The notes under the pieces: model-generated
Database searches by the model: none
What the model saw: only the letters and a program-made list of their open reading frames with translations
What the model was told of the DNA's origin: nothing
Position numbers and translations under genes: made by a program
In this document: positions 4,518-21,805 of the stretch, one piece after another
How positions within the stretch are numbered: the stretch's first letter is position 1
How the letters are laid out: every line of letters starts with the position of its first letter
Source: a virus
Virus record (IMG/VR): IMGVR_UViG_3300028388_000952
Span: 1 to 22,361 of that record
DNA length: 22,361 nt
Strand: one strand, 5' to 3'

Positions 4518-5870
4518 TTAGTAAAGCCTGATTCCTGTGCCTCGACCAGCACGAGCATGAATCATCGAGAACTCTCGATAGACCAAATATCCGAGAGCGT
4601 CATTCATATGGTCATAACCTGCGTCCTTATCAGGATCGCCAGCCTCGGTATAACTCTGCAGCTCTAGGCACTCAATCGTCCGTTTGCAATTAGCCGCAAC
4701 CTGCAACCTTACTTTGCCTTTGCCGTTCTCCAGCAAAGCTTGTAGAGAAGCCACCCGATCACGGATGGGAGGGTTGGCTTTCGGCGATTGGTTGCTGAAC
4801 CCATAGGACTCCAAGATCTGAATGTCCGTTCGTGAGGCATTCGTGCTTCTGTTGCCGCCTGATGCGTCAGGGTAGATGTAAACCTTGCGTCCGTTAGCGC
4901 GGAGTTGTATCTCTTGGGCCATTGCGTCGGTGTCATGTGCACCGCTGATCTCGTCGATCAGGAGAAGGTTTTCTCCAAGACGAACACCGATCACCGCTGA
5001 CATGTTGCCGATATTAAAGTCAACACCCACGCGAAGTGGTTCCATGCTGACGTCAGGAATCGAGTTGGTGACATGTTTTTCGCGATTGAACCGGTCATAA
5101 ACCTGACCAGTTGTGAGATTGCAAAATTGGCCTTCTAAGTAAGCCTGCAACAGGCTCGGATCGTAGTTGGCTTGCAGTCTCTCGATGAAGTCTTGGGGCA
5201 GATAAGGGTTATCCGCCGAGCGCATCCTAATGAGCTTGCGGTCTTCGCGCTGCTGCGCCTCCTCTGTGCCGAACGTGTTCCACATCCAACGGAAGCCCTC
5301 TGGCGTTGATGCGGCGCTAAACTGGCGCACGTTGCCGGCCCTGAGGCGGCCAAGGATCTTGGGGAACGCGCGCGTGCAAATCGCAGGGTTCACCGTATCA
5401 ATTTCATCGCACAGGATGTACGCCAAGTTGAGACCGATGATGCGGGAGTAGTTCTCGAAGGAGCGGCACAGCAATTTGCTGTCTCCGCCTGGGAAGTGCA
5501 GCAGATATTCGGGCAACGGTGATGCGCGGAAGGTGTACGGGATCTCGTACTGCTCAAGGAAGCCTTCGAAATCTGCCTGCCAAATATCACGAATCAAAGG
5601 CCCAGTAGGCTCCATGACGCAACCGGTAAAGCCTTGATTGGCGGCTGCCATAAAGACGCTTTTTGCCGCCAACGCTCTCGTCTTGCCTGCGCCGTAGCCA
5701 GCAGAGATGCCAAGGATCTCGGTCTTGTCGTCATCAACAAAGGCACGCTGGCCTGGGTGCAGATCCTCCCGGATTCGGCTAAGCAGCCTGGCAACATCAA
5801 GTTGGGAGTTGCCCTCACCGATGCGGTGCAAAACCGAGCCAGTCGGGATATGGCTCAGGATTCCGCTCAC
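4518..5870 (-). CDS. terL: Large terminase subunit (packaging ATPase-nuclease)
   Basis: 450 residues. The ATPase domain shows Walker A GISAGYGAGKT (54-64), Walker B YILCDE (151-156, Asp155 and Glu156) and a coupling motif SAAST (185-189). The RNase H-like nuclease domain has Asp284 in GVDFNIGN, Asp335 in YPDASGG and Asp424 in DHMNDALGY, the expected acidic triad. The enzyme pumps DNA into the prohead and cuts it. Its start overlaps the small terminase stop by four bases, and the portal follows after 27 bases. All key residues are present, so it should be active. Length is normal. Confidence 0.96.
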   Translation of the reverse strand: MSGILSHIPTGSVLHRIGEGNSQLDVARLLSRIREDLHPGQRAFVDDDKTEILGISAGYGAGKTRALAAKSVFMAAANQGFTGCVMEPTGPLIRDIWQADFEGFLEQYEIPYTFRASPLPEYLLHFPGGDSKLLCRSFENYSRIIGLNLAYILCDEIDTVNPAICTRAFPKILGRLRAGNVRQFSAASTPEGFRWMWNTFGTEEAQQREDRKLIRMRSADNPYLPQDFIERLQANYDPSLLQAYLEGQFCNLTTGQVYDRFNREKHVTNSIPDVSMEPLRVGVDFNIGNMSAVIGVRLGENLLLIDEISGAHDTDAMAQEIQLRANGRKVYIYPDASGGNRSTNASRTDIQILESYGFSNQSPKANPPIRDRVASLQALLENGKGKVRLQVAANCKRTIECLELQSYTEAGDPDKDAGYDHMNDALGYLVYREFSMIHARAGRGTGIRLY

Positions 5871-16833: not shown

Positions 16834-17457
16834 TCATGGGCTAATTGTGATCATCCAACCGGAGTTTGGGCCATCAACCAGCCATCGGTGGTTGAATTCG
16901 GACTGACGCACCCGCACAGACTTGCCAGACCTTGATCGGTCGTGCCCTCCCCTCTGCATAAGGGGTTTGCCCATCGGGTCATGCATCACCCAATACTGGT
17001 CCCCAACTGGGCTGCGCTTGCCCTGGAAGCCCGTGATCACGGACCAATGGCCGCAGCTGTAGCTGTCGCACATCGGCGGCTCACCGCGCGTCAGGTCGCC
17101 GGAATGGAGCCATCCCACGAGGACCGCGCCCCCGCGAGAGATTGACTCTTCGATCATCTCTGGCGTGCCTTTCTGAGTGAACTCCACATCCAGGCCCAAG
17201 GCCCGGAGCGTTTGGAGCTGGGCATCAACACTGGTGGTATCGCCGTAGTGGGCCAAGTGGTAGATGTATTCGTTATCTGAATCGACCAGACCGGCGCTGG
17301 CTGCGAGCATGGCGGCGGCGGAGGCGAAACATTCACGCCAGCCGTCTTGTCCGTTGTCGAGTTGCTGAAAGTAGGGGACGAAAACTTCTTGATCAATGCC
17401 AGCGGCCAGCCAAGCCTCGAGCCACTCACTGTCTTCCTGAAAAAGCTCAGAAAACAT
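16834..17457 (-). CDS. C39-like cysteine peptidase, probable endolysin
   Basis: 207 residues from ATG 17457. Papain-fold C39 marks: VPYFQQLDNGQDGWRECFAS with the oxyanion Gln near 31 and nucleophile Cys43, SCGHWSVITGF with His137, and YWVMHDPMGK with Asp160. The C-terminus FNHRWLVDGPNSGW matches the tail I recall from cyanophage cell-wall peptidases. It probably cuts peptidoglycan cross-links during lysis. Starts at TTG/GTG codons near 17538-17544, right after the stop of the small membrane gene, are alternatives. There is no signal peptide in the 207-residue form, so release would need a holin. Confidence 0.82.
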   Translation of the reverse strand: MFSELFQEDSEWLEAWLAAGIDQEVFVPYFQQLDNGQDGWRECFASAAAMLAASAGLVDSDNEYIYHLAHYGDTTSVDAQLQTLRALGLDVEFTQKGTPEMIEESISRGGAVLVGWLHSGDLTRGEPPMCDSYSCGHWSVITGFQGKRSPVGDQYWVMHDPMGKPLMQRGGHDRSRSGKSVRVRQSEFNHRWLVDGPNSGWMITISP

Positions 17458-17552
17458 GGTTTCTTGTATGGCTGCAACGCCAGCCAAGTGGTAGGGCGAG
17501 TCATCGCGGAAGTGCTGGAAGAAGGGCAGCAAACTCAGCACACCCAAAAAAC

Positions 17553-17699
17553 CTACAGACGGCCCGATGATGACTGGGAACAAACGCTTTCGCCAGCCGT
17601 GTATCCGGCGACGAACACCAGCATTGAGCTGCACAGCAGCAGCGTGACCGCGCCGCCCGCAACGAACCAACCCGTCACGGAGAAGACGGACATTTTCAT
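17553..17699 (-). CDS. Small one-helix membrane protein of the lysis cassette
   Basis: 48 residues starting MKMSVFSVTGWFVAGGAVTL. One hydrophobic segment spans about residues 5-32 (GWFVAGGAVTLLLCSS then MLVFVAGYTAG), followed by a short polar Ser-rich tail. The start overlaps the upstream gene's stop (ATGA). Size, topology and place just before the C39 lysin suggest a holin-like, pinholin-like or spanin-like role; this is inference. Confidence 0.62.
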   Translation of the reverse strand: MKMSVFSVTGWFVAGGAVTLLLCSSMLVFVAGYTAGESVCSQSSSGRL

Positions 17700-17869
17700 T
17701 TTTCAACTCTCTTCTCCGGATACAGGTTCGAGCGCACATACGCGCACACTTGGTCGTCGATCGTATTGTCAGTGGAAGCGCAATACGCCTCCAAAAGATC
17801 CATCACAAGTTTTTTGACCCCTTCCGATTGCAAGAACCGAAACAAGATTGGGCGGATCAAAAGCAGCAT
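17696..17869 (-). CDS. Small conserved lysis-region protein
   Basis: 57 residues starting MLLLIRPILFRFLQSEGVKK, with LVMDLLEAYCASTDNTIDDQ after it and a basic end (PEKRVEK). The pattern 'FLQS--VK-LV-DLLEAY---TDN-ID' is familiar from small proteins near lysis genes of marine phages, from memory. AAGG lies eight bases upstream of the ATG. The stop overlaps the next ATG. The amphipathic N-terminus may contact the membrane. Function unknown. Confidence 0.66.
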   Translation of the reverse strand: MLLLIRPILFRFLQSEGVKKLVMDLLEAYCASTDNTIDDQVCAYVRSNLYPEKRVEK

Positions 17870-17885: not shown

Positions 17886-17903
17886 GCACTAATACGTTAG
17901 TGC
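17886..17903. promoter_or_regulatory. Inverted repeat between two lysis-region genes
   Basis: GCACTAA (17886-17892), loop TACG, TTAGTGC (17897-17903): a perfect 7-bp stem that includes the stop codon of the 83-residue gene. No U tract follows, so it is more likely an RNA structure or operator than a terminator. Confidence 0.45.
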
Positions 17904-18148
17904 CTATCTGAGTGCCCTTCCAGTCGTGCCACTGAACGCTCCAATTCGTTCAATCTGGCGAACACCTCAACATCTTTGGTCTTGATGTCATCGTGCAAGA
18001 TCTGCAATCTGCTGGACAGATTGTCCACGGCAGTTGTGAGCCGCACCAAAGAATCACGGCCCTGTTGGCTTTGACGGTTTAGACCTGAAACGCCCAAGCC
18101 AGCTACGGTGACGCTAGCCCCGGCAACGGCGGCCCAGACTTCAACCAT
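17897..18148 (-). CDS. Membrane-anchored coiled-coil protein (holin-like candidate)
   Basis: 83 residues. An N-terminal hydrophobic Ala/Val/Gly segment (VWAAVAGASVTVAGLGVSGL) forms one membrane helix. It is followed by a long coiled coil (LVRLTTAVDNLSSRLQILHD then IKTKDVEVFARLNELERSVA). This layout is common for small phage lysis-cassette proteins, including some holins and spanin-like proteins. A GGGG/CGGG stretch lies just upstream of the ATG as possible ribosome-binding site. Its start is only 26 bases from that of the divergent 92-residue membrane protein. Confidence 0.66.
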   Translation of the reverse strand: MVEVWAAVAGASVTVAGLGVSGLNRQSQQGRDSLVRLTTAVDNLSSRLQILHDDIKTKDVEVFARLNELERSVARLEGHSDRH

Positions 18149-18174: not shown

Positions 18175-18453
18175 ATGGCAGAAACACCGCAGGCCAAGTC
18201 AGAAGAACAAGAGGATCATGGCAATGGATGGCTAGGCGACTTTGTACGCCTGACAATCATGATTTGGGCGATGGGTGTGATCACTGCCAACTACCTAGGC
18301 ATGTTCAAGCAGTCAATCGACGTAACTTTTTCGGCTTCACTGCTTTCCTCCACTGCAGCCAGCTATGGCCTTTCTGTGGGCCGCAACGGTCAAAAGAAGA
18401 GAGAAGACAAGAACGTTATCGTTGAGAAAGATTCCAAAGCTGGCATCAAATGA
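18175..18453 (+). CDS. Two-helix membrane protein, holin candidate
   Basis: 92 residues. A polar N-terminus (MAETPQAKSEEQEDHGN) precedes a first hydrophobic helix (FVRLTIMIWAMGVITANYLG, about 23-42). A second weaker helix (SASLLSSTAASYGLSVG, about 53-69) and a charged Lys/Glu tail follow. Small size, two membrane helices and a charged tail are typical of class II holins, and the C39 lysin gene is close by, though on the other strand. The next gene's ATG overlaps this stop (ATGA). Holin function is inferred. Confidence 0.62.
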   Translation: MAETPQAKSEEQEDHGNGWLGDFVRLTIMIWAMGVITANYLGMFKQSIDVTFSASLLSSTAASYGLSVGRNGQKKREDKNVIVEKDSKAGIK

Positions 18454-18974
18454 CCCGCACACTTTTGGTATTGGGGATTACTTTGGCAGCTGCATCGCCT
18501 GCCCATGCTGACCTGCGGCATGTGATGACCCAAAGCGCCCAGATCTCGGTGGATCAGGCCTACAGCTCGGCCACTCGTGGCGGCACCACCTACAGCAGCC
18601 AAGGAACCAACGTCACCCCATCGGTCACGGTCAGCGGCACAACGACCAACAACCGCATCGGTGGTCTGGACATGTCCACCATCACCAGCGGCGTTCCGGA
18701 CATTGTGAACACGGACTATGACGTGACCACCGCCGGGTCGGCTTATTCCATGACGGAAAGCCTGACGGTTGGCGACAGCATCCCCAGCTCCACCACGGTG
18801 ACGAATGGCGTTGTGCCTTCTCTCCCGTCGATGATGACGACCATCACTGGTGCGGGGGGCGAAACGGGCTCTCTCGCGGCCAGCGTGACTAGCTCAGGCC
18901 AAGCAACCGTAACGGCTGGTGATGCTGGAACCTCGGCCATTCTGTCCACCAAGATCGAGCTGGAAATTGACTAG
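18450..18974 (+). CDS. Secreted protein A of unknown function (Thr/Ser-rich)
   Basis: 174 residues. A clear signal peptide, MTRTLLVLGITLAAASPAHA, precedes a Thr/Ser/Val/Gly-rich mature part with strand-like repeats (GGTTYSSQGTNVTPSVTVSG and AYSMTESLTVGDSIPS). The mature chain lacks Cys and suits an extracellular or surface beta structure. It shares an ordered set of short motifs with the next gene (Y-S-x-x-G-x-N-V, G-G-(L/V), W/Y-S-(I/M)-T-E-S), so the pair look like diverged duplicates. Function unknown. Confidence 0.72.
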   Translation: MTRTLLVLGITLAAASPAHADLRHVMTQSAQISVDQAYSSATRGGTTYSSQGTNVTPSVTVSGTTTNNRIGGLDMSTITSGVPDIVNTDYDVTTAGSAYSMTESLTVGDSIPSSTTVTNGVVPSLPSMMTTITGAGGETGSLAASVTSSGQATVTAGDAGTSAILSTKIELEID

Positions 18975-19398
18975 GGCTTGGCTGCTGGTTTTGCTGCTGC
19001 CTAGCTCAGCTATGGCCGCACCTATCGTTCCTCAGTTCACCCAGGGCCAGCTCAATTCGCGGGTCGAATCCACAACGGTGATTCAAGAATCCATCACCAG
19101 TTACAACTACCGAACCGGCTATAGCTATTCAGCTGCAGGCCATAACGTCGAAACGGTGGGCGATGTGCCCATCTCGCCTGATGCCACCGTCACCAACAAT
19201 CAGACCGTCGGTGGCGTGAACTTTTCTTGGACTAGCCCCCACCTTGAAACCAAGCCCCAATGGCAAGTCGTCAATCCTGGCGAAAGCTGGAGCATCACAG
19301 AATCGTTCATGGCTCCTGGCCTCGATGCAGTGACGCAGGTTCAAAGGACCATCACCACAGAAAGCGTCACGGAAAGCACCTCGGTGTTCTCGCAGTAA
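18967..19398 (+). CDS. Secreted protein B, paralogue-like to A
   Basis: 143 residues from TTG 18967, inside the last codons of gene A. This start is chosen because MTRAWLLVLLLPSSAMA is a complete signal peptide (n-region, hydrophobic core, A-x-A end), whereas the longer frame from 18919 would bury it. The mature part has YSYSAAGHNVETVGDVPISP, VGGVNFSW, then NPGESWSITESFMAPG and an end rich in Thr/Ser (TITTESVTESTSVFSQ). Motif order matches protein A. It is probably exported to the periplasm or surface. Confidence 0.68.
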   Translation: MTRAWLLVLLLPSSAMAAPIVPQFTQGQLNSRVESTTVIQESITSYNYRTGYSYSAAGHNVETVGDVPISPDATVTNNQTVGGVNFSWTSPHLETKPQWQVVNPGESWSITESFMAPGLDAVTQVQRTITTESVTESTSVFSQ

Positions 19399-20030
19399 TC
19401 GCGGCGCTCGGCAGCCCTGCTTACGCCAACACAACAGTCGCAAACCCTTCGAGCACATCGACGGGCTCAGTGGTCAACAACGCCTATCAGATGATGACTG
19501 GGCCGCATCCGATTTACCGGATGTCACAGGGGATCCAGTGCCCAGGACCAACCCTTACGGTGTCGCCTTTCGTCACCGGCAGCAGGAACTTTGACCTGCC
19601 GTTTGAGTCAACAACGCGGACGCCTGTTTATTCAACAGCAGACAGCAACGATGACGGCGAGCCTGACTCCCCAGGCAAGGTGCTCTACTACTCAGAGTTG
19701 CCACGCTTCGAGAAAGACCGACGCTCGCTCAACTACGGCATCACGGCCACCTTCTCTGTGCCGCTAGACCGTGGCTTAGCTGATCAGTGCAAACGAGCCG
19801 TCAACACAAACATCAAATTGCAGGAGCAGTTGTTGGCCACCAAACGCCTAGAGCACGAGTTGTTTAGGGCTCAAAAGTGCGGGGAACTTGCCAAGGCGGG
19901 CGTGCAATTTACGGGCCAAATGTCAGTGGTGTGCAGTGATCTAATTGTCACAGTGCCCCCGGTCAAGATGGTGCCCCACACGCACGCTATTTCCGCGCCT
20001 TCCGCTGCGCCTGCTTCCGCAGGAAAGTAG
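19260..20030 (+). CDS. Secreted protein C of unknown function (start uncertain)
   Basis: The only standard start in frame upstream of the protein-like region is ATG 19260, 138 bases inside gene B. The real N-terminus looks like a signal peptide near residues 41-56 (GVLAVIAALGSPAYA), but no ATG, GTG or TTG lies close before it. The mature part contains QGIQCPGPTLTVSPFVTGSR, LNYGITATFSVPLDRG and a C-terminal region with Cys in CKRAVN, QKCGEL and VVCSDL. The 'QGI-CP-P-L' and 'YG--A--S-PL' phrases recall cyanobacterial/cyanophage exported proteins. Its 3' end overlaps the opposite gene by 44 bases. Confidence 0.62.
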   Translation: MASRQSWRKLEHHRIVHGSWPRCSDAGSKDHHHRKRHGKHLGVLAVIAALGSPAYANTTVANPSSTSTGSVVNNAYQMMTGPHPIYRMSQGIQCPGPTLTVSPFVTGSRNFDLPFESTTRTPVYSTADSNDDGEPDSPGKVLYYSELPRFEKDRRSLNYGITATFSVPLDRGLADQCKRAVNTNIKLQEQLLATKRLEHELFRAQKCGELAKAGVQFTGQMSVVCSDLIVTVPPVKMVPHTHAISAPSAAPASAGK

Positions 20031-20700
20031 AGGGCCGCGCCTCTTTCTTGCGGGTCACAATCTCCTTCGCCTTGGTCAGAAGCTTCTTCACCACCGGCTT
20101 GATGATCCGTACCAAGAACGGCGTGCTGAGCGCGGCAGTGGTTGCAACAACAGCAATGCCTGCGGTCTGCGCTGCCTCGTAGGGCGACGGCACCGCTTTG
20201 ATCAGCTGCTCCGTCACAGGAACGTTGCGGTAAACCTCTTTGCAGACACCATCGACTAGCTCGTAAGACTCCAGGATCTTGCGGCCATTAGGTGACAGCG
20301 TGCCAATCTCTGCCGCATCTGCTGGCGGGCATTTCACCTCTGGCGGTTGTTTGTCTTTTGGCGGTGGTGGCTTTGGGTCAGCCTTTTGCTGTGCTGGCGG
20401 ATCCTCTTGTTCTTGATTCTGTGTCGGTGTCGGCTCAATGATCTGCAGTTTGCGCGGGTTCCAATCCAGCGGAACGTAACTGGGGATCTCACCCTCAGGG
20501 CAAGAGATGCCAACACCATTCGGGTCATCCCGCAGCAGGGATGGGTTTAGGTGTGCGTCTCTGTGGACCCTGGCACATCCTGGCTTTTGGTATATCGGAC
20601 GCGGCGCTAAGTTCTGTGTGACCGGCGGTGGGAAAACACGCGGCTCAGGGATGGGCCGTATCTCAATCGTCGGAATCTCAATATCAGGAATGTCGGGCAT
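19987..20700 (-). CDS. Proline-rich cyanophage-type protein with C-terminal membrane helix
   Basis: 237 residues starting MPDIPDIEIPTIEIRPIPEP. Order: Pro/Ile-rich N-terminus, then a Cys-containing segment (GCARVHRDAHLNPSLLRDDP, GISCPEGEIPSYVPLDW), a Pro/Gln/Lys-rich linker (~90-125), a second Cys segment with GVCKEVY, one hydrophobic helix (~180-200, TAGIAVVATTAALSTPFLV) and a basic tail. I recognise this architecture as a recurrent protein of marine cyanophages, thought to be virion-associated or membrane-associated, with no proven role. Its ATG shares the CATG at 20698-20701 with the gene on the other strand. Confidence 0.78.
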   Translation of the reverse strand: MPDIPDIEIPTIEIRPIPEPRVFPPPVTQNLAPRPIYQKPGCARVHRDAHLNPSLLRDDPNGVGISCPEGEIPSYVPLDWNPRKLQIIEPTPTQNQEQEDPPAQQKADPKPPPPKDKQPPEVKCPPADAAEIGTLSPNGRKILESYELVDGVCKEVYRNVPVTEQLIKAVPSPYEAAQTAGIAVVATTAALSTPFLVRIIKPVVKKLLTKAKEIVTRKKEARPSTFLRKQAQRKARK

Positions 20701-21170: not shown

Positions 21171-21404
21171 TCAAGGCATCTTGAAAGGCACAGCTGGACC
21201 AGTGCTGGTTGGCAGCTTTGGCATCTCAGGCATTTCTGGGACGGGCACCTGATCAAGGATCGTTTTTGTCAGCTCTAGCTTCAGCTCGCTGGCGTAGTTT
21301 TTGACCATTGACGGCACGCGCGTGTAAGCCATCACGCCCATGACGGCCATCGTGCCAGACATGACAAAGCCCAGAACGCCGAGCAAGTTGTAGACCTTTT
21401 GCAT
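21171..21404 (-). CDS. Small cyanophage-type membrane protein
   Basis: 77 residues. One membrane helix near the N-terminus (YNLLGVLGFVMSGTMAVMGV, about 5-24) is followed by a charged helix (NYASELKLELTKTILDQV) and a Pro-rich tail (PVPEMPEMPKLPTSTGPAVP). The layout 'LGVLGFVMSGT ... PEMPKLP ... TGPA-PF' is one I recall from small cyanophage genes near the MPDIP protein. Role unknown. Its ATG lies three bases beyond the U tract of the terminator of the upstream gene, leaving no room for a Shine-Dalgarno site. Confidence 0.7.
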   Translation of the reverse strand: MQKVYNLLGVLGFVMSGTMAVMGVMAYTRVPSMVKNYASELKLELTKTILDQVPVPEMPEMPKLPTSTGPAVPFKMP

Positions 21405-21463: not shown

Positions 21464-21805
21464 TCAGAAAGAGAACTTGGCGCCAGTCTTGAAACCGAGG
21501 CCGAAGTCATCGCCGGTACTGAATGAAACCTCTCCGTAAAGAGGACCGCCGCTCACGCCAGCCTTGCCGGTGAACTCGATCTCTTTCTCACCAGCGTCAG
21601 GGAACACCACAGCAGGGCCTGCCTGCACGTAGGCACCGTTGTCGAAGTCATAGCCAACATGTCCCTCAAGGATCCCGGAGCCAACGCCAGAGTCGAGGCC
21701 GACGCCGACATTCAGCTCAGGATTGACGTACCAATCTGCGCGGGCAGAGAGGGGAGCCAAGGCAAGTGCGCCAGCGGCTACACCAAAAACAAGACGCTTG
21801 ATCAT
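21464..21805 (-). CDS. Small exported beta-barrel-like protein
   Basis: 113 residues. Signal peptide MIKRLVFGVAAGALALAPLS followed by ARA, then a Gly-rich mature part of alternating strands: DWYVNPELNVGVGLDSGVGS, LEGHVGYDFDNGAYVQAGPA, KAGVSGGPLYGEVSFSTG, with a C-terminal aromatic ending GAKFSF. Strand alternation and terminal Phe are typical of outer-membrane barrels. I recall similar porin-like proteins in many cyanophages, with no proven function. It could alter the host surface. A strong terminator follows 33 bases after the stop. Confidence 0.8.
   Translation of the reverse strand: MIKRLVFGVAAGALALAPLSARADWYVNPELNVGVGLDSGVGSGILEGHVGYDFDNGAYVQAGPAVVFPDAGEKEIEFTGKAGVSGGPLYGEVSFSTGDDFGLGFKTGAKFSF

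Follow-up and report, generated by a model that had tools for sequence, protein, structure and literature searches.

A cassette of exported and membrane proteins conserved in marine cyanophages may act with the endolysin at the end of infection

Three overlapping genes for exported proteins (A, B and C), together with membrane-protein neighbors (H, D and a phrog_568 gene), recur in about 380–450 cyanophage records of siphovirus, myovirus and podovirus type. We hold, at about even confidence, that their sequences describe a cyanophage-specific, late-expressed envelope module that would act with the endolysin at the end of infection, perhaps in place of spanins. Computation showed export signals, paralogy of A and B, an overlap of B with C, conservation and joint occurrence of the genes, a late-promoter motif and the endolysin neighborhood.

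Gene layout of the cassette

The window, which is the whole stretch of DNA analyzed (22,361 nt), comes from a siphovirus-type phage infecting marine picocyanobacteria and represents a 22-kb fragment of its genome. Its terminase shared 70–75% identity with those of S-H1, MED4-117 and KBS-S-2A. H, A, B and C lie head to tail on the plus strand, with overlaps of 4 nt (H/A) and 8 nt (A/B). D converges with C, and their tails overlap by 44 nt. The phrog_26178 gene and H are divergent, and their start codons are 26 bp apart. An earlier note, made from these letters alone, had placed three mutually overlapping ORFs behind a holin candidate; the ORFs were confirmed (Table 1), and the candidate is the two-TM protein H. 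All cassette parts were predicted to be membrane or exported proteins. Family-library matches for the cassette were labeled "unknown function" or DUF only. In two contigs that are near relatives of the window, B/C or A frames were broken (L016, 3053–3529; L021, 2973–3625), which reflects either an assembly error or a real deletion.

Table 1. Features of the cassette and its surroundings in the window
Feature	Position	Strand	Description
Endolysin-family gene	16834–17739	-	C39-like; phrog_10051 (3e-42); PF13529 (1e-3, below cut-off)
phrog_2738 gene	17696–17869	-	Amphipathic mini-protein
phrog_26178 gene	17897–18148	-	N-terminal TM and coiled-coil-like tail
H	18175–18453	+	Two-TM holin-like membrane protein; PF20048 (DUF6450; E = 5e-12), phrog_721 (3e-14)
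A	18450–18974	+	Sec-exported Thr/Ser/Gly-rich beta protein; phrog_564; signal peptide 18450–18509
B	18967–19398	+	TTG start; Sec-exported beta protein; signal peptide 18967–19017; phrog_650 (1e-43), PF19847 (DUF6322; 6e-30)
C	19260–20030	+	Sec-exported; phrog_848/1755 (phrog_848, 1e-75)
B/C dual-coding overlap	19260–19398	+	C in the -1 frame
D	19987–20700	-	Inner-membrane protein; Pro-rich ectodomain, one C-terminal TM; phrog_570 (1e-46)
phrog_568 gene	21171–21404	-	Small membrane protein; N-terminal TM, helix, Pro tail
Phage_OMP gene	21464–21805	-	Beta-barrel-like exported protein; PF24653 (2e-16)

Export signals of A, B and C and paralogy of A and B

The signal peptides that the earlier note had read in A, B and C held up in homologues. 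For each protein, a hydrophobic core and a -3/-1 site recurred in over 100 homologues, and a strict AXA-type cleavage site was found in 102/104 A, 85/117 B and 105/113 C proteins. The GenBank annotators of P-SSP7 independently recorded a SignalP match for the B homologue and one TM for D.

A and B had also been proposed to be duplicates. An A-only HMM matched B proteins (E = 2.5e-5) and a B-only HMM matched A proteins (E = 1e-5; Z = 1e5 for both), whereas none of 4420 shuffled sequences and no reversed sequences were matched, indicating that A and B are true but ancient paralogues. B scored 104 bits against DUF6322, above the curated cut-off of 30.6, and A scored 13.5 bits, below it. The description of the mature parts as Thr/Ser/Gly-rich applied to A (45% of the chain) and B (33%), but hardly to C (26%). 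The mature parts of A and B contain no Cys, and an S[VI]F[ST]Q-like tail was nearly always present at the C-terminus of aligned B proteins.

B was modeled with AF2 as an all-beta protein (pLDDT 86.6) with strands of 24 and 25 residues. Its search against PDB gave nothing significant (E > 5e-3, TM < 0.31); the matches were a mixture of beta-pore stems, tail knobs and appendage fibres that had only long strands in common. A BFVD search returned mainly its own cyanophage family.

H has two TM by hydropathy, and its P-SSP7 homologue is also annotated with two in GenBank. Its size and two TM are in the range of holins (small, 1–4 TM), and like them it may permeabilize the inner membrane. H resembles two-TM phage holins in adjoining an endolysin gene and exported lysis candidates as well, but its families, DUF6450 and phrog_721, carry no functional annotation.

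C overprints the end of B

C has a 56-residue basic leader followed by a signal peptide. The AF2 model of C (pLDDT 68) has four beta strands and a 42-residue helix in the mature part. Alignments showed four invariant Cys, the helical part is a 4-Cys one, and the first mature Cys is residue 38. In Foldseek searches against PDB, TolC-like proteins came top, with a non-significant E of 0.31. C shares four beta strands and a long helix with TolC-type outer-membrane factors, but it is half their size, lacks an internal repeat and matches them at E of about 0.3. With a fold match at this level, the model would not make C a TolC-type member. Neither the B nor the C model settles the mechanism.

From C start to B stop, the overlap was 139 nt in the window and in MED4-117, mostly 166 or 172 nt in myovirus-type loci and 112–208 nt in most podovirus-type loci; it was longer or shorter in a few. 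C was in the -1 frame relative to B everywhere except in the suspect contig L016. In 59 non-redundant B genes, -1-frame stops made up 0–0.7% in the last 140 nt and about 6% further upstream, and the other frame had 5–6%. At the conserved Trp sites, the preceding codon gives ATG, GTG or TTG. The leader of C (about 40–60 residues among homologues) is basic and lies ahead of the hydrophobic signal core because C starts at these sites inside B; a start codon directly before the core was absent in most loci. A programmed -1 frameshift producing a B::C fusion was rejected as first choice, as the C frame is open only from the conserved ATG/GTG/TTG, upstream of which stops occurred at background density.

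Because it overlaps B, C has often been missed or mis-started, and the annotation of several genomes omits it. It was unannotated or not called intact in S-RSM4 (5001–5729 of locus L032) and S-PRM1 (about 5780–6529 of L033). In the podovirus P-GSP1, a phrog_2738 domain is fused to the C-terminus of C (4854–5570 of L035), whereas in the window phrog_2738 is a separate gene beside the endolysin. B/C is a clean case of a gene maintained by overprinting another in three phage morphotypes.

D and other envelope proteins

The charge after the TM of D exceeded that before it in 99/99 homologues, and the tail is strongly basic; an N-out/C-in topology was thus predicted. The ectodomain is about 170 residues long and has no signal peptide, which makes the N-out placement unusual. 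Cys42, Cys67 and Cys153 are near-invariant.

The phrog_568 product, a membrane protein of 77 residues, accompanies the exported cassette, and whole-record searches found it in the 14 non-podovirus cassette carriers. Databases and papers name it "plasmid stability protein", and pseudolysogeny has been inferred from it (PMC9602691); the name looks like a misannotation. In myoviruses, a phrog_605 gene lies between phrog_568 and D (L147, 11710–12270; L143, 2857–3492). Its product has an N-terminal TM and a Gly-rich hydrophobic C-terminal part, a two-anchor layout. The Phage_OMP (PF24653) gene adjoins the cassette in most siphovirus-type loci.

Distribution among cyanophages

By tblastn, A was found in 381 and C in 441–448 of 50,697 phage records, essentially all of them cyanophages. 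HMM scans of about 110 loci gave the order A-B-C, with D and H nearby. In the podoviruses P-SSP7, P-GSP1, S-RIP2 and SS120-1, the module lacks A and has the order D-H-B-C; it lies between the genes for tail fibres and terminase, near where T7 has its holin gene.

Among 24 whole records, which are not phylogenetically independent, B, C and H were all present in 18 and all absent in six (S-PM2, P60, PSS2, Syn5, S-H1 and KBS-S-2A), with no exceptions. The linkage was strict even though myoviruses carry H on a different strand. These six phages and S-SZBM1 lack C and have hosts of the same kind; the published virion proteome of S-SZBM1 is thus uninformative on the presence of C in virions.

A host origin of the genes was considered and rejected. 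The 14 genome-contig matches (L113–L126), including one filed under Nonlabens xiamenensis (NZ_RMVE01000006, L116), place cyanophage cassettes in records labeled as bacterial genomes or MAGs. Because most of these contigs are short, come from MAGs and carry neighboring cassette genes, they are probably phage contigs binned or co-assembled with bacteria. No chromosomal family of cassette genes was seen in one non-exhaustive scan with two peptide patterns.

For T4-like cyanophages, most of the cassette had already been noted as a cluster with no function attached. Sullivan et al. 2010 (PMC3037559) described this T4-like version, made up of hypothetical proteins, in every cyanophage except S-PM2 and proposed no function. 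Their T4-GC 218/219/234/235/237 and 414 ("plasmid stability protein") are the same genes in P-SSM4 and S-SM1, with 218 equivalent to H, 414 to phrog_568, 219 to phrog_605, 234 to D, 235 to C, 236 to B and 237 to A. Both analyses agree on the absence from S-PM2. Their study covered T4-like phages only, whereas siphoviruses and podoviruses were also included here. The occurrence in all three morphotypes, the export signals, the A/B paralogy, the B/C overlap, the late promoter and the endolysin linkage are new. In the literature searched, this cluster was the sole earlier description found, in line with the earlier note, which knew of no described function.

Endolysin neighborhood and late-promoter motif

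Linkage to an endolysin gene, a mark of lysis cassettes, was found mainly in siphovirus-type loci. In 26 of the 27 that had at least 1.1 kb of upstream sequence, an endolysin-family gene lay divergent beside H, along with one or two small genes; MED4-117 was the one locus without it. An endolysin-family homologue was at the cassette in 9/48 myovirus-type loci. Cys-His-Asp of the phrog_10051 endolysin was kept in siphovirus-type relatives, whereas the catalytic Cys/His were not conserved in the myovirus-type homologues. KBS-S-2A keeps an endolysin-family homologue and lacks the cassette. The endolysin candidate of the window had no match among PDB sequences. Its longest ORF contains a hydrophobic segment near residues 53–71, possibly a signal-anchor.

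Of 54 myovirus-type loci, 39 carry a T4-late-promoter-like motif, [AC]TAAATA, between -48 and -25 relative to the start of A, against a background rate of 0.6% per 30 nt. Its positions clustered at -35 to -30, about 33 nt before A. It was also found upstream of H in 25/54 myovirus-type loci, and in none of the siphovirus-type loci. For T4 late promoters, Sullivan et al. 2010 (PMC3037559) queried with TATAAAT. The A-B-C operon of S-SM1 is reversed relative to the 49-kb block around it, the rest of which is almost wholly forward.

Comparison with spanins

Kongari et al. 2018 (PMC6139136) found 91 of 677 genomes without spanins; Prochlorococcus/Synechococcus phages account for 20 of the 91. As a possible i-spanin they named a type I inner-membrane protein with a C-terminal TM, and as a possible o-spanin an outer-membrane protein; D matches the former. 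The cassette was present in 17 of 21 marine cyanophages from their spanin-less list, a count that leaves out S-CBS4. Whole-record searches identified 13 carriers (P-SSP7, P-SSM2, P-SSM4, Syn9, P-HM1, Syn33, S-ShM2, S-SM1, S-SSM5, S-SSM7, Syn19, P-RSM4 and S-RSM4), and tblastn added P-HM2, Syn1, P-SSM7 and S-SM2. S-PM2, P60, PSS2 and Syn5 lacked it.

No classical i-spanin/o-spanin pair was found among A–D. A, B and C have AXA-type cleavage sites and no o-spanin lipobox Cys, and D has a C-terminal TM instead of the N-terminal TM and periplasmic coiled coil of an i-spanin. The phrog_568 and phrog_26178 products have an N-terminal TM, but no lipoprotein partner. The cassette was not filed as a spanin because the lipobox and an N-terminal TM on D were both absent. 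Like the two-component spanins Rz/Rz1 of lambda, it has overlapping genes in different frames that are envelope-directed, lies beside holin and endolysin genes and combines an inner-membrane protein with an exported partner. Unlike them, it has no lipoprotein, it has extra exported beta proteins and the TM of D is C-terminal; no sequence similarity was found. The cassette may work like a spanin.

Discussion

The earlier note had read a phage cassette devoted to the envelope, with exported proteins, a duplication and a holin-like neighbor, and this part stood; surface remodelling, a superinfection block and an extracellular fibre, which it had offered as roles, were not established. The spread over hundreds of cyanophages, the overprinting of B by C, the endolysin operon and the late-promoter motifs in T4-like phages had been missed.

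Host-surface remodelling or superinfection exclusion is unlikely, though it is the strongest of the other explanations. A, B and C would mask or alter surface receptors, and progeny or competing phages would then fail to adsorb to late-infected cells or debris. Their signal peptides, the nearby outer-membrane-like PF24653 protein and the cyanophage-specific, non-universal occurrence, as of an accessory function, are consistent with it. However, the late-promoter motif and the conserved endolysin neighborhood fit egress better, and the strict linkage to the two-TM, holin-like H is left unexplained. Conservation, overprinting, the endolysin operon and the late-promoter motifs favor lysis or egress over early remodelling of the host surface.

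Late timing and export are also compatible with a fibre or virion role. For an extracellular or periplasmic fibre, which we consider quite improbable, A and B would polymerize via their very long Ser/Thr-rich beta strands, and C would be an outer-membrane anchor or export pore. The two long strands of the B model, its weak resemblance in fold to Ena fibres (spore appendages) and to the tail knobs of phages, and the strands, long helix and weak TolC similarity of C point this way, but every PDB match was non-significant, B occurs without A in podoviruses and the endolysin linkage is left without a reason. Least probable of all are virion-associated proteins or tail parts with incidental hydrophobic N-termini, for which the late-promoter motif, the podovirus module coming after tail-fibre genes and a weak resemblance between B and tail proteins of phages argue, and against which stand the strict signal-peptide sites in A and C, the same genes across three tail architectures, the S-TIM5 record (other genes labeled "virion structural protein and packaging", cassette genes "hypothetical protein") and the disulphide-like Cys pattern of C and D, which fits an oxidizing compartment.

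In the favored lysis module, H would make or trigger a holin-like lesion in the inner membrane, and A, B and C would be exported via Sec to the periplasm and/or outer membrane. D, anchored by its C-terminal TM, would reach out with its Pro-rich, disulphide-bearing ectodomain and meet the exported proteins, among which C, with beta hairpins and a long helix, would be the best outer-membrane candidate. Once the wall is cut, an assembly of D, C and B would disrupt or fuse the outer membrane, a task that spanins perform with different components. We infer the topology of D, these contacts, the outer-membrane site and the disruption itself from the features above. Besides the endolysin genes and the late-promoter motif, the reversed A-B-C operon of S-SM1, the strict co-occurrence of B, C and H, the placement in podoviruses and the presence in spanin-less phages speak for this module. 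Against it speak the missing lipobox and spanin pair, the seven phages that lack C but have hosts of the same kind, the KBS-S-2A endolysin homologue that occurs without the cassette, the non-significant fold matches of B and C, the unusual N-out ectodomain of D and the catalytic Cys/His changes in the myovirus-type endolysin homologues. More tentatively, D and Sec-exported B and C could form a lipoprotein-free "cyano-spanin" that takes the place of Rz/Rz1-type spanins in most of the marine cyanophages listed as spanin-less.

Marine cyanophage lysis is a driver of large carbon flux. This cassette, both conserved and engineerable, is a concrete candidate for what may break the outer membrane when marine cyanophages exit their hosts.
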